From Burkholderia seminalis DSM 23518 (GTDB taxonomy: Bacteria > Pseudomonadota > Gammaproteobacteria > Burkholderiales > Burkholderiaceae): a DNA stretch of 64,000 nt. The notes under the pieces are model-generated. The model saw only the letters and a program-made list of their open reading frames with translations, did no database searches and was not told the origin of the DNA. Positions 11,923 to 15,320 of this stretch are shown here, piece after piece. The stretch lies in contig NZ_CADFDK010000006.1 in NCBI RefSeq assembly GCF_902832885.1, positions 248,001-312,000 on the forward strand, written 5' to 3'. A program made the translations under genes and the position numbers. The first letter of the stretch is position 1. Every line of letters starts with the position of its first letter.

Positions 11923-13143
11923 TCAGCGTGCGGCGTCCCGCGCATCGAATATCCTCACGCAGATCGCGGCCGCCAGCGCGATCGCCGTCGACAGCAGCAT
12001 CATCGCGAGCGGCGCGTAACCCGCGTTGCCGGCGGTCAGCACCGCGCCCGTCAGCGACGACCACGCGGCGCCGCCGGCGATCGTCATCGCACCGGCCAGC
12101 CCCGACGCGGTGCCCGCCAGCTCCGGGCGCACCGACACCGCGCCGGCATGCGCGCCGGGATTCGTCAGCCCGTTGCCGATGCCGACCAGCACGCACGGGC
12201 CGAACCACGCGAGCGGATGCGTCGCGCCGCCGAGCGCGAGCGCGATCAGCGGCCCCGCACACGCGACGACGCGTCCGCACAGGATCGTCGTGGCCAGTGC
12301 GTAGCGGCGCGCGACGCGCGCGGCCAGAAAGCTGCCGCCGACGAAACCGGCCGTGATCGTCCCCATGCAGAAGCCGATCTCCGCCGGCGGGATGCCGAAC
12401 AGCGTTTTCGCGGCGAGCGGCGCGCCGGCCAGGAATGCGTAGAACGCGCCCGTCGAGAACGCCATGCAAAGCGCATAGGCCCAGAAACGGCGCGCGCGCA
12501 GCAGCGCCGGATAGGCACGAAGCTGCTGCCGGAAGCTCGATGAACGCTGCGTATGGGTTTCGACGAGATCGAACGCGCACCAGCCGAACAGCGCGATGCC
12601 GGCCGCGCCGAGCAGCCAGAAGCTCGCCCGCCAGCCGGCCGCCTGGTCGAGCGCGCCGCCAAGCGTCGGGCCGAGCATCGGCGCGAACGCGGCCGCCATC
12701 GCCGCATAGCCGATCCGGCTCGCCGCGCGCGCGCCGCCGCCGGTATCGCGGATCGTCGCCATCGACACCGGGTAGACCGACGTGATCGCCGCCTGCATCA
12801 CCCGGCACGCGAGAAACACGCGGACATCGGCCGCCATCGCGCAGCCGAGCGAACCGAGCGCGAATATGCCGACGCTCGTCAGCACGACCGGCCGCCGCCC
12901 GAACCGGTCCGACAGCGGTCCCATCACGAACTCGAGCGACGCGGCCACCGCCGCGTAACCGCCGAGCGACAGCGCGACGAGCGCATAGTCGGTGCGCAGG
13001 TCGCGCGCGATCGCCGGCAACGACGGCAGGAACAGGCTCAGCGGCAGCACCGAGAGCGCGCACAGCAGGATCAGCGTCGCCTGTCGCGGCGACGCCGGGG
13101 CGGAATCGATCGGCGGGTTCGATGACAAGCGGATGCCCTCCAT
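11923..13143 (-). CDS. Bcr/CflA-type drug-resistance MFS transporter
   Basis: 406 residues with about 12 hydrophobic segments. It contains the MFS loop-2 motif GPLSDRFGRRPVVLTSVGIF, the drug/H+ antiporter motif C region (GYAAMAAAFAPMLGPTLGG) and the LFLPSLPAIARDLRT start typical of the Bcr/CflA subfamily, which exports compounds such as chloramphenicol, bicyclomycin or sulfonamides. The start ATG 13143-13141 (MEGIRLSSN) is chosen because a promoter, a 16-codon upstream ORF and an intrinsic terminator lie directly before it. Longer frames would translate through that terminator. Substrate is not deducible. Confidence 0.85.
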   Translation of the reverse strand: MEGIRLSSNPPIDSAPASPRQATLILLCALSVLPLSLFLPSLPAIARDLRTDYALVALSLGGYAAVAASLEFVMGPLSDRFGRRPVVLTSVGIFALGSLGCAMAADVRVFLACRVMQAAITSVYPVSMATIRDTGGGARAASRIGYAAMAAAFAPMLGPTLGGALDQAAGWRASFWLLGAAGIALFGWCAFDLVETHTQRSSSFRQQLRAYPALLRARRFWAYALCMAFSTGAFYAFLAGAPLAAKTLFGIPPAEIGFCMGTITAGFVGGSFLAARVARRYALATTILCGRVVACAGPLIALALGGATHPLAWFGPCVLVGIGNGLTNPGAHAGAVSVRPELAGTASGLAGAMTIAGGAAWSSLTGAVLTAGNAGYAPLAMMLLSTAIALAAAICVRIFDARDAAR

Positions 13144-13171
13144 GCACGTGCCCGACGGCCGTGCGCAATGC

Positions 13172-13200
13172 AAAAAAAAGCCCCCGAACGAGTCGGGGGC
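13172..13200 (-). terminator. Intrinsic terminator in the leader of the Bcr/CflA-type gene
   Basis: A perfect 8-bp stem GCCCCCGA / TCGGGGGC (13180-13187 with 13193-13200, 5-nt loop) is followed on the minus strand by eight T (13179-13172). It lies 29 bp before the efflux gene's start and 24 bp after the small upstream ORF, so it would abort transcripts unless disrupted. It could also serve as the end of the htrA-like gene's transcript. Confidence 0.85.
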
Positions 13201-13223
13201 GCATGGGTGCCGGCGCGTTGCCG

Positions 13224-13274
13224 CTACCGGACCCTGCGCCTGTGGACTACGACGATGAAGCAAGCCGTTTTCAT
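13224..13274 (-). CDS. 16-residue leader peptide (uORF) upstream of the efflux gene
   Basis: An ATG at 13274-13272 with a strong Shine-Dalgarno (AGGAG nine bases upstream) opens a 16-codon frame, MKTACFIVVVHRRRVR, ending in TAG at 13226-13224. It lies inside the transcribed leader and ends 24 bp before the terminator stem. The C-terminal RRR and RVR triplets fit the +X+ pattern that causes macrolide-dependent ribosome arrest in characterised erm-type leader peptides. The inferred role is a ribosome-mediated attenuator of the drug exporter. The peptide is seen directly; its function is inference. Confidence 0.6.
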   Translation of the reverse strand: MKTACFIVVVHRRRVR

Positions 13275-13321
13275 GCCGAATGGCTCCTGAATGCCGGGCA
13301 GACCGCCCGTGATATCGGACG

Positions 13322-13351
13322 ATGTTAGGCGGACGACGCCGGCCGCGTCAA
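13322..13351 (-). promoter_or_regulatory. Sigma-70-type promoter for the leader and efflux gene
   Basis: On the minus strand TTGACG (13351-13346) is separated by 18 bp from TAACAT (13327-13322). It lies immediately after the stop codon of the protease gene. Transcription would start near 13315 and produce a leader of about 170 nt carrying the small ORF and the terminator. Confidence 0.6.
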
Positions 13352-13355
13352 CGCC

Positions 13356-14945
13356 CTAACGCGCGCGCACCGACACGAACTTCCGCGCGTTGTTGCGCTG
13401 GATCAGCACGGCGATCACGTTGCCGCCGCTCGCTTCGAGCGACTGCACGTCGTCCGGCGTCTCGAGCAGCGTGTCGTTGAGTTCCAGGACGACGTCGCCC
13501 GGCTGGATGCCCGCGTTCGCGGCCGGCCCGTGCACCGCGTCCACCATCATCCCGACCGCGAGCCCCGTCGAACGGCGCTCGTCGTCGCTCAGCGCGTGCA
13601 TCGTCAGTCCCAGCCGGTCGCCCCGGTCGCCCCGGTCGCCCGCCCCCGGGCCCGATCGTGCCGCAGCCTTCGGCGCGGCCATGCCCGCCGTCGCGGCCGG
13701 TGCGTTCCCGGCCGCGTCATCGGCGCCCGTGATCGTCAGCATCACCGGCGCGCGGTTGCGGATCACGCGCAGCGGCGCCTTCTCGCCGGGCGGCAGCGCG
13801 GCGGCCAGGTCGTTCAGTTCGGCCGAGCGGCCAATCGCCTTGTCGCCGAACTTCACGATCACGTCGCCGGGCTTCAGACCGGCCGCGGCGGCCGGCGAGC
13901 CCGGCGCGACGCCGTTGACGAGCGCGCCCGCCGGACGCGGCAGCCCGAATGCCGCGGCCAGCCCGACGCCGACGTCCTGCACGTCGACGCCGAACGCGTT
14001 GCCGGGCGACGCCCCGGGGGCGGACGCCTGAGCCTGTTGCGCCTGCATCTGTGTCTGCTGTTGCGCCTGCCACTGCGCGCGCACCTTTGCCGCGAATGCG
14101 ATCGGAATCGCGAACGTCATGCTCGCGTAGCGATCGTTGCCGGTGTAGACCTGCACCGCGATGCCGATCACGTCGCCCGCGCGATTGAACACGGGGCCGC
14201 CCGAATTGTCGGGATTCGGCGCGATGTCGGTTTCGAAGAACGGGAACGTGCTGCCGTCCGGCAACCGGTGCGACGTCGCGCTGACGATGCCGGCCGTGAC
14301 CGTGTTGCCCGCCCCGTCCGGCGCGCCGATCGTCATCACCGGCTCACCCGCGCGGACCTTCGACGCATCGCCGATGCGCACGAACGGCAGTTTCGTCGCG
14401 CTGACGCGCAGCAACGCGACATCGCTTTGCGGATCGACGGCCAGCACGGTCGCCTTGAATTCGCGGCGGTCGGTCAGCCGCACCGTCACGTCGGTCGCCT
14501 CGTCGACCACATGGGCCGACGTGAGGATCAGGCCGTCTGCGCTGACGATGAAGCCCGAGCCGCTACCCGACACCGCACGCGGCGCCGTGTCGGGTGCCGG
14601 CGTCTGCGGCGCCTGCGCTCCCTGCGCGGGCGGCGGCGCGTCGTGCCGGAAAAATGCGGCGAGCGGATCGTCGGGATCGAGCATCGCGAAGGACGGACCG
14701 CCCGTTTGCTGGTCGGGCGCGGCAGCCATGATGGTCACGACGGCCGGACCGTAGCGGTCGACGATCGCCGGAAAATCGACCGGCATCGCGTAAGGCGCGG
14801 CGGGCGCCCGCTGCTTCATCGCGCGTGGCGCGGCGGGCGGTGCGAGGGGGGCGGCAACGGCAGCGGGCGGCGGCGAAAAAACGGCAAGCACGCCCCCGAT
14901 CAACGCGGTGCGAAGCACGGCGCGAGCAAGCGTCTGGCAAACCAC
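13356..14945 (-). CDS. HtrA/DegP-like periplasmic serine protease with two PDZ domains
   Basis: 529 residues from a GTG start (14945-14943) preceded by an excellent ribosome site (GGGGGAGGTG). Residues 1-32 form a signal peptide. The trypsin-like domain has His in LTSAHVVDE (about 145), Asp in DPQSDVALL (about 175) and Ser in NPDNSGGPVF (about 248). Two PDZ domains follow (LVNGVAPGSPAAAAGLKPGDVIVKFG near 360-390; GMMVDAVHGPAANAGIQPGDVVLELN near 475-500). The active-site loop, normally GNSGGP, reads DNSGGP: the residue two before the catalytic serine is Asp instead of the near-invariant Gly. This may alter the oxyanion hole. Role: probably envelope protein quality control, or a chaperone-like derivative. 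Confidence 0.85.
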   Translation of the reverse strand: MVCQTLARAVLRTALIGGVLAVFSPPPAAVAAPLAPPAAPRAMKQRAPAAPYAMPVDFPAIVDRYGPAVVTIMAAAPDQQTGGPSFAMLDPDDPLAAFFRHDAPPPAQGAQAPQTPAPDTAPRAVSGSGSGFIVSADGLILTSAHVVDEATDVTVRLTDRREFKATVLAVDPQSDVALLRVSATKLPFVRIGDASKVRAGEPVMTIGAPDGAGNTVTAGIVSATSHRLPDGSTFPFFETDIAPNPDNSGGPVFNRAGDVIGIAVQVYTGNDRYASMTFAIPIAFAAKVRAQWQAQQQTQMQAQQAQASAPGASPGNAFGVDVQDVGVGLAAAFGLPRPAGALVNGVAPGSPAAAAGLKPGDVIVKFGDKAIGRSAELNDLAAALPPGEKAPLRVIRNRAPVMLTITGADDAAGNAPAATAGMAAPKAAARSGPGAGDRGDRGDRLGLTMHALSDDERRSTGLAVGMMVDAVHGPAANAGIQPGDVVLELNDTLLETPDDVQSLEASGGNVIAVLIQRNNARKFVSVRAR

Positions 14946-15320
14946 GGTGCACCTCCCCCGGCAGTCGCGGCGCCGGCCTGCGCGAAACGCGCAGGCGCCC
15001 GACAAGCACCGGTACACGCATCCATTTATAGTCCACGCGGCCTGTTCGAACAGATGAATCGAAACCCGTATGCCGGATGGGGCGGCGGGCGCGGAGCCGC
15101 GATGGCGTTCGTTCCGGACAAAGTGCGCGGTTCGTCAATCCGCACATCCACCACGCGTCGACGCGCGCGCGAGCTGAGAATCGTTGCCGGTAGTTGTGAA
15201 CGCGGGCGTGGCAGTCCGCTATGGCTTGTCCGCCTGTCACGCATCGCGGACAGGCGGCACGCAAACCGCGGCCTGTCCGCTATCGCCTTTGGCCCGTCGA
15301 CAAGCCTGCATCGGCCCCGG
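14946..15320. other. Intergenic region between the lipoprotein and protease genes
   Basis: A 375-bp stretch with no supported gene. A perfect 9-bp stem at 15230-15257 (CCGCCTGTC / GACAGGCGG) lies about 60 bp beyond the lipoprotein stop and may terminate that transcript. The part near 15000-15040 should hold the protease promoter. Confidence 0.45.

Follow-up and report, generated by a model that had tools for sequence, protein, structure and literature searches.

A putative valine-reading transcription attenuator, probably related to ilvB-type leaders, ahead of a Bcr/CflA-type MFS transporter gene in Burkholderia

The window analyzed here is the whole stretch of 64,000 nucleotides from Burkholderia seminalis DSM 23518 (contig NZ_CADFDK010000006.1, positions 248,001 to 312,000). 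On its minus strand a short leader with a uORF and an intrinsic terminator lies between a gene for a Do/HtrA-type serine protease and a gene for a Bcr/CflA-type MFS transporter. The features are, in window coordinates and in the order of transcription:

13356..14960, minus strand: Do/HtrA-type serine protease, the upstream neighbour, outside the switch (TIGR02037, 315.4 bits, cut-off 416.2)
13322..13351, minus strand: promoter-like site TTGACG-N18-TAACAT by sequence pattern, with the -35-like TTGACG at 13351-13346, an 18-nt spacer and TAACAT at 13327-13322
13284..13288, minus strand: Shine-Dalgarno sequence AGGAG of the uORF, in the window and in aligned genus loci
13224..13274, minus strand: putative leader peptide uORF of 16 codons, MKTACFIVVVHRRRVR and stop, conserved in the genus
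13245..13256, minus strand: putative regulatory codon run Ile7-Val8-Val9-Val10 (ATC GTC GTA GTC), from codon conservation
13227..13240, minus strand: predicted 5' arm of helix P1, GGCGCAGGGTCCGG, within the last uORF codons
13198..13213, minus strand: predicted 3' arm of helix P1, CCGGCACCCATGCGCC, the last 3 nt overlapping the 5' arm of the terminator
13180..13200, minus strand: intrinsic terminator hairpin, stem GCCCCCGA/TCGGGGGC of 8 pairs, followed by T8 at 13179-13172
13136..13141, minus strand: Shine-Dalgarno sequence GGAGGG of the MFS gene, in the window and in genus loci
11923..13128, minus strand: Bcr/CflA-type MFS transporter of 401 aa with a probable TTG start (TIGR00710, Pfam MFS_1)

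The promoter-like site is the sole one in positions 12000-14500 (one found by pattern search, with a mean of 0.1 in shuffled sequences), and its -10 element reads TAACAT or TACCAT in all 12 genus loci printed (L001-L012). The terminator, judged only by its pattern, is no more than chance would give (one found, shuffled mean 1.4); it is credible because it is conserved, its stem pairs being kept in 13 aligned genus leaders except for the outermost pair in one of them. The parts that the original prediction had placed on the minus strand, i.e., the promoter TTGACG-N18-TAACAT, the Shine-Dalgarno sequence, the 16-codon uORF and the terminator with its eight T, were all re-found at the coordinates given for them. 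The start of the exporter gene had been set at the ATG at 13143, the edge of the region noted. Since 9 of 11 insertion-free genus loci (L001-L008, L010-L012) do not have this ATG, the gene probably starts instead with the TTG at 13128 behind GGAGGG; the TTG and a GGAGGG-like sequence are kept (GGATGG in L006).

Conservation of the leader was followed across the genus. A BLAST search with a 209-base query gave matches in 14 of 41 genomes, all of them Burkholderia. Of 65 genus genomes, 37 have a match of 81 bits or more to a covariance model built from 13 leaders (R1), the tally of 39 at E 0.001 taking in two genomes with weak matches only, and an MFS orthologue (E <=1e-120) was present in 39 of the 65. 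Leader and MFS gene were both found in 35 genomes, the leader only in 2, the MFS gene only in 4 and neither in 24 (Fisher p 1.4e-11, a value that ignores relatedness). A leader with uORF and terminator ahead of the Bcr/CflA-type gene, as originally predicted, is thus conserved jointly with this gene. The same counts bear on the reading in which the transcript that ends at the terminator serves chiefly as a trans-acting small RNA or small mRNA, like the Sinorhizobium trp attenuator RNA, and MFS control is secondary. The leader has its own promoter and terminator, Rfam keeps its relative Atu_C8 as an sRNA family, and rnTrpL/peTrpL gives a precedent (excerpt of PMC10117765); however, the leader without the MFS gene was found in only 2 genus genomes, which argues against this reading, and we regard it as very improbable.

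The leader adjoins the MFS gene in 32 of the 35 genomes having both, and in the other three it is separated from it by an insertion of ~9 kb (G360), by an insertion of ~1.4 kb (G012) or by a contig end (G009). In the loci L060-L088 the MFS gene was placed downstream by script in 26 of 29. The exceptions are L081 (G018), where an MFS gene begins downstream but gives no match at the strict E-value, L086, which was read by hand as the G012 insertion, and L088 (G370), where by eye only a short MFS remnant is left. An R1 match is absent in four MFS-bearing Burkholderia genomes (G002, G017, G024, G352), and no leader was seen by eye at the B. multivorans MFS gene (L195). Five weak genus matches of 27-30 bits (G362, G372, G353, G354, G344) were rejected by eye as leaders. 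Beyond Burkholderia, the R1 search of the sampled class (369 genomes) gave nothing convincing: of the 8 genomes matched, one is that of the window itself, and the seven others (24-29 bits) have by eye no such uORF leader. Two Burkholderia ilvI loci and one ilvB locus of G318 (L180-L182) have no such leader in the upstream stretch read.

The insertions themselves were also looked at. The island of ~9 kb between leader and MFS gene in G360 (L286, G360:C2:878000-888600) encodes Gabija gajA and gajB (PADLOC 939 and 919 bits), a gene of PDC-S15 type, an ORF that weakly matches DpdK/DrmC and another that by eye is recombinase-like. In G009 (L297, end of C155) and G012 (L298, C149) foreign DNA begins right after the T run of the leader; by eye, the piece in G009 resembles the beginning of a group II intron, although Rfam gives no match for it at its cut-off.

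Codons were counted in 29 distinct sequences, which derive from 33 script-found uORFs among the 37 strong R1 matches and of which 26 are 16 aa long; the uORFs of L083, L088, L284 and L285, missed by the script and read by eye, were left out of these counts. Val8 and Val9 are invariant as amino acids in all 26 distinct 16-aa uORFs and are encoded by four and three different codons, respectively, and codon 10 is Val in 19 of them. At the Arg codons 13 (CGC) and 16 (CGG), not even a synonymous change occurs in any of the 26. This pattern suggests that the Val run is selected at the amino-acid level and the Arg tail at the RNA level, namely as the 5' arm of P1. Outside the 26, the uORF of L088, in a genome without a full MFS gene, keeps the Val run and has AGG at codon 16, and that of L083 is MKTAYFIVVIHRRKVR; L284 (G357) and L285 (G356) keep by eye P1 and the terminator and have no Val run, the G357 peptide being MKTNPNRIARPVARRRKVR. 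The rare codon GTA makes up 54 of the 86 Val codons of the run in the 29 distinct uORFs, compared with 26 of 750 Val codons in 30 Burkholderia MFS genes with checked frames and 9 of 190 in eight window genes, a comparison given without a p value as the lineages are not independent.

Erm-type and other drug-stalled leader peptides are uORFs that control resistance genes. In analogy, the original prediction had taken the RRR/RVR triplets as +X+ motifs at which a ribosome bound by a ribosome-targeting drug stalls, so that the terminator is disrupted and the exporter induced. The uORF, the terminator and a drug-efflux-type gene are indeed all present, and RVR is common within Burkholderia. However, the Arg codons are conserved as nucleotides and sit within helix P1. 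The peptides were compared in an author-chosen list of 31 MFS-linked leaders, 8 from Burkholderia with the exceptions included and 23 others with near-copies. Here VV occurs in 26 and VVV in 21 of the 31. A +X+ motif forms the last three residues in 6, all from Burkholderia, and stands anywhere in the peptide in 12, i.e., in 6 from Burkholderia and in 6 of the 23 from elsewhere; the remaining 19 have none (2 of 8 in Burkholderia, 17 of 23 outside). In addition, the RNA relatives described below precede ilvB, a biosynthetic gene and known attenuator site. The idea of an attenuator is probably right, but the drug-stall mechanism is not supported by these comparisons, and we consider it highly improbable.

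The best Rfam match of the window leader is Atu_C8 (RF02502) with 26.3 bits (E 0.0024 in 281 bases), under the gathering cut-off of 50. Matches of such size are common, as Atu_C8 was matched in 57 of 299 genomes at E 0.01, 15 of them over the cut-off, and because similar weak matches occur in many genomes the 26.3-bit match alone proves nothing. Other Rfam readings (anti-hemB with 19.6 bits, Acido-1, Spot_42, MicL, NsiR1, asX2) lie all far below their cut-offs and were rejected. Most alphaproteobacterial Atu_C8 loci that were read precede acetolactate synthase and contain uORFs such as MKIAVALIVVGRRMGRVV and MNNVVLIVGKQRMGR. Atu_C8 was matched in 115 of 121 genomes of Rhizobiaceae, the family of G146, and of 27 Rhizobiaceae RF02502 loci read 21 are at ilvB and 6 were unclassed by the script. 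This suggests that the Rfam sRNA Atu_C8 is an ilvB leader. An alphaproteobacterial ilvB leader peptide was already described (excerpt of PMC1273637, citing Vitreschak 2004), as was a Caulobacter ilvBN attenuator with tandem Ile and Val codons (excerpt of PMC4117421). Seven named alphaproteobacterial leaders at MFS genes score 75-117 bits against RF02502, above the cut-off of 50. Because the score of the Burkholderia leader stays under it, homology of this leader to RF02502 rests on likeness, in that it resembles the family in peptide, P1 and gene. In 20 distinct ilvB leaders (L099 among them without gene class), ILV or LIV was found in all 20 and VVV in none.

Short arrest peptides exist, and a further reading is that the hydrophobic Val segment, as part of the nascent chain, is itself the sensor of a small molecule, Val-tRNA not being the signal. 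Conservation at the amino-acid level alone would fit decoding and nascent-chain sensing alike. The strong enrichment of the rare GTA codon and the position of the run directly before P1, as in ilvB leaders, speak against a nascent-chain sensor, which we therefore judge highly improbable.

The Val-type leader was also found at orthologous transporters outside Burkholderia. Copies of Atu_C8 in G146, G291 and G312 precede MFS genes 47-50% identical to that of the window, a second copy lying at ilvB, and G083 has its second copy at an acetolactate-synthase-like gene. Atu_C8 was also matched in 6 of 36 genomes from the family of G318, a family placed with Devosia by the tree; all six matches lie before an MFS gene, and the G318 MFS protein is 56% identical to that of the window. 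In a plasmid survey, 10 of 11 records with an MFS orthologue were read, and Val-rich leaders were found before the orthologues of Burkholderia arboris, B. cenocepacia, R. lusitanum, Leisingera caerulea and Phaeobacter piscinae; no leader was seen at those of B. multivorans, Robbsia and Pseudorhodobacter. TPP riboswitches (75 bits) lie before the orthologues on A. tumefaciens pAt2, in place of the Val-type leader, and on an M. mediterraneum plasmid (L193:2824-2940 and L201:2806-2922). The M. mediterraneum orthologue was matched in four pieces and has no gene annotated.

From a longer list, 80 named genome loci were kept, Rfam being run on 40 (6 with Atu_C8) and the uORF script on 63. Twelve of the named loci were accepted by eye as Val-type leaders (L202, L203, L205, L206, L208, L209, L211, L212, L215, L220, L222, L233), of which L206 and L211 lack VV. 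Further orthologues behind a Val-rich leader were found in Kiloniellaceae, Minwuia and a gammaproteobacterial MAG. In this MAG (L208:1588-1674) the leader peptide is VIAVVVVSVVVRV, with nine Val in thirteen residues; it is followed by a long terminator and the MFS gene, and the usual P1 sequence is absent.

An MFS tree was built from 61 proteins with author-chosen rows, so that fractions are no census; L222 and G312 are identical sequences in it. The mistranslated row L119 was left out and L155 entered in its true frame, and a check over 62 rows brought up no further faulty one. All 27 leader-bearing rows fall in one clade of 32 rows (support 89/89), and one of the five clade members without a leader is a TPP-riboswitch gene. 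The leader label needs 6 changes on this tree, at least 5 of them forced, compared with a shuffled mean of 20.1. This fits a history of one gain and several losses, or of a few gains.

Helix P1 was compared over 36 leaders. A helix of at least 8 pairs was found in 34 of them in a search without shuffled control, and the best helix begins 3-14 nt past the start of the last branched-chain codon in 33 of the 36 and before it in L208, L041 and L030. In ilvB leaders the P1 arms are of quite different sequence (GCGCAUGGG/CCCAUGCGC, UGCGCGCCGA/UCGGCGCGCA, GCACAUUGCCG/CGGUGAUGUGC), and the helices of L211 and L212 pair in another register. Of 13 MFS leaders of the Rhizobiaceae/Devosiaceae type, 7 have P1 placed by the script clear of the terminator, at a distance of 7-9 nt upstream; in the remaining 6 the script did not isolate the hairpin.

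A unit of Ile-Val-Val-Val uORF, P1, terminator and MFS gene is conserved in part of Burkholderia, the same arrangement is found at orthologous transporters in Rhizobiaceae and in a Devosia-like family, where the leader is Atu_C8 over the cut-off, and similar ones are found in other Pseudomonadota. The locus is thus best read, with good though not full confidence, as a ribosome-mediated transcription attenuator that would sense valyl-tRNA supply and control the MFS transporter, and that is probably related to the ilvB type. With ample Val-tRNA, the ribosome would reach the stop codon and cover the 5' arm of P1, and the terminator would form. With scarce Val-tRNA, it would wait on the Val codons and leave the 5' arm free, so that P1 could form. 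P1 would then occupy three or more bases at the beginning of the terminator 5' arm, and transcription would continue into the transporter gene. The position of P1 relative to run and stop has an antiterminator geometry, as its 5' arm would be hidden by a ribosome at the stop and exposed when the ribosome waits early in the Val run. The sensing of tRNA is presumed from the codon run, and we infer the antiterminator step with caution, because the folding results are mixed and partly against it.

In folding calculations on L014 (Burkholderia) and L037 (ilvB), the outer terminator pairs form with probabilities of 0.31 and 0.34-0.52 as long as the ribosome has not passed the run, compared with 0.97 once it has. 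In the window leader, they still form with 0.83 with the ribosome on Val8 and with 0.99 on Val9. Four leaders of the Rhizobiaceae/Devosiaceae type were folded; in three (L016, L022, L025) the terminator is independent of ribosome position, and in the fourth (L020) it depends on position only at codons 1-3, before the run. Before the terminator 3' arm is made, the 5' arm in the window leader is paired upstream with 0.37 on Val8, 0.11 on Val9, 0.05 on Val10 and 0.39 at the stop. Since none of the values on the Val codons exceeds that at the stop, stalling there gives no gain over the stop position in the window leader (12 of 22 leaders run).

The transporter is a 401-aa Pfam MFS_1 protein, and its best model is TIGR00710 (Bcr/CflA efflux) with 193.9 bits (E 5.6e-57), below the cut-off of 200.9; the orthologue L025 reaches 212.8 bits. 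No other match in its own genome exceeds 31% identity. The best-scoring solved chains are MdfA and EmrD, and the family models that match include PunC, a purine nucleoside transporter. GPxxGG, which we take to be an antiporter-type motif, is present in five of six aligned MFS proteins, and clade members are annotated as multidrug efflux transporters. Because the protein resembles drug/H+ antiporters, we lean to the view that it exports something that interferes with branched-chain amino-acid synthesis or with Val charging. A more specific and rather doubtful version would be the export of a natural inhibitor of, for instance, the TPP-dependent acetolactate synthase or of valyl-tRNA synthetase. 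The cell would notice such an inhibitor by its effect, through a shortage of charged Val-tRNA in most lineages and of TPP in Agrobacterium and Mesorhizobium, with two unrelated RNA switches serving one transporter clade.

The main alternative to export leaves the attenuator as proposed and is compatible with the regulatory part, the transporter importing a nutrient such as valine, a precursor or another metabolite. Two starvation sensors, the Val-type attenuator and the TPP riboswitch, preceding members of one MFS clade would fit uptake, as would PunC among the matching models, whereas MdfA and EmrD as the closest solved relatives by sequence and the presence of GPxxGG point to export. Uptake appears quite possible, short of probable. 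The RNA control of this efflux-annotated clade points to the supply of valine and in two cases of thiamine, which is a clue to the substrate.

No description of a leader of this kind at an MFS gene was found among the matches listed from open-licence PMC full text; the 5'UTR table of an RNA study of B. cenocepacia may list it (PMC5688073, excerpt).

Among known systems, Erm-type leaders share with the window leader a uORF ahead of a possible resistance gene. They differ in that here +X+ is not conserved at the peptide level, a terminator lies between uORF and gene, and the signal sensed is most likely uncharged tRNA. The rnTrpL/peTrpL system of Sinorhizobium meliloti is likewise an amino-acid attenuator, and both the RNA and the peptide that it releases have been connected with resistance to several antimicrobials; that Trp attenuator lies before trpE and its released products act in trans, whereas here an efflux-type gene would be controlled in cis (PMC10117765). 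The TPP riboswitch at the A. tumefaciens pAt2 and Mesorhizobium mediterraneum orthologues is likewise a starvation-type RNA control of the same MFS group, but as a ligand-binding riboswitch in contrast to the uORF of the window leader. The alphaproteobacterial ilvB/ilvBN attenuator (Caulobacter ilvBN; RF02502) has in common with it a short uORF with consecutive branched-chain codons, a P1 that begins in the last uORF codons (GCGCAUGGG/CCCAUGCGC) and an intrinsic terminator close behind. Here, in contrast, an MFS transporter gene lies downstream, the run is mostly Val compared with Ile-Leu-Val-Val, the 3' arm of the Burkholderia P1 shares 3 nt with the terminator, and the Burkholderia uORF has a Shine-Dalgarno sequence. 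Leaders resembling amino-acid attenuators precede efflux-type genes in no fewer than two bacterial classes.
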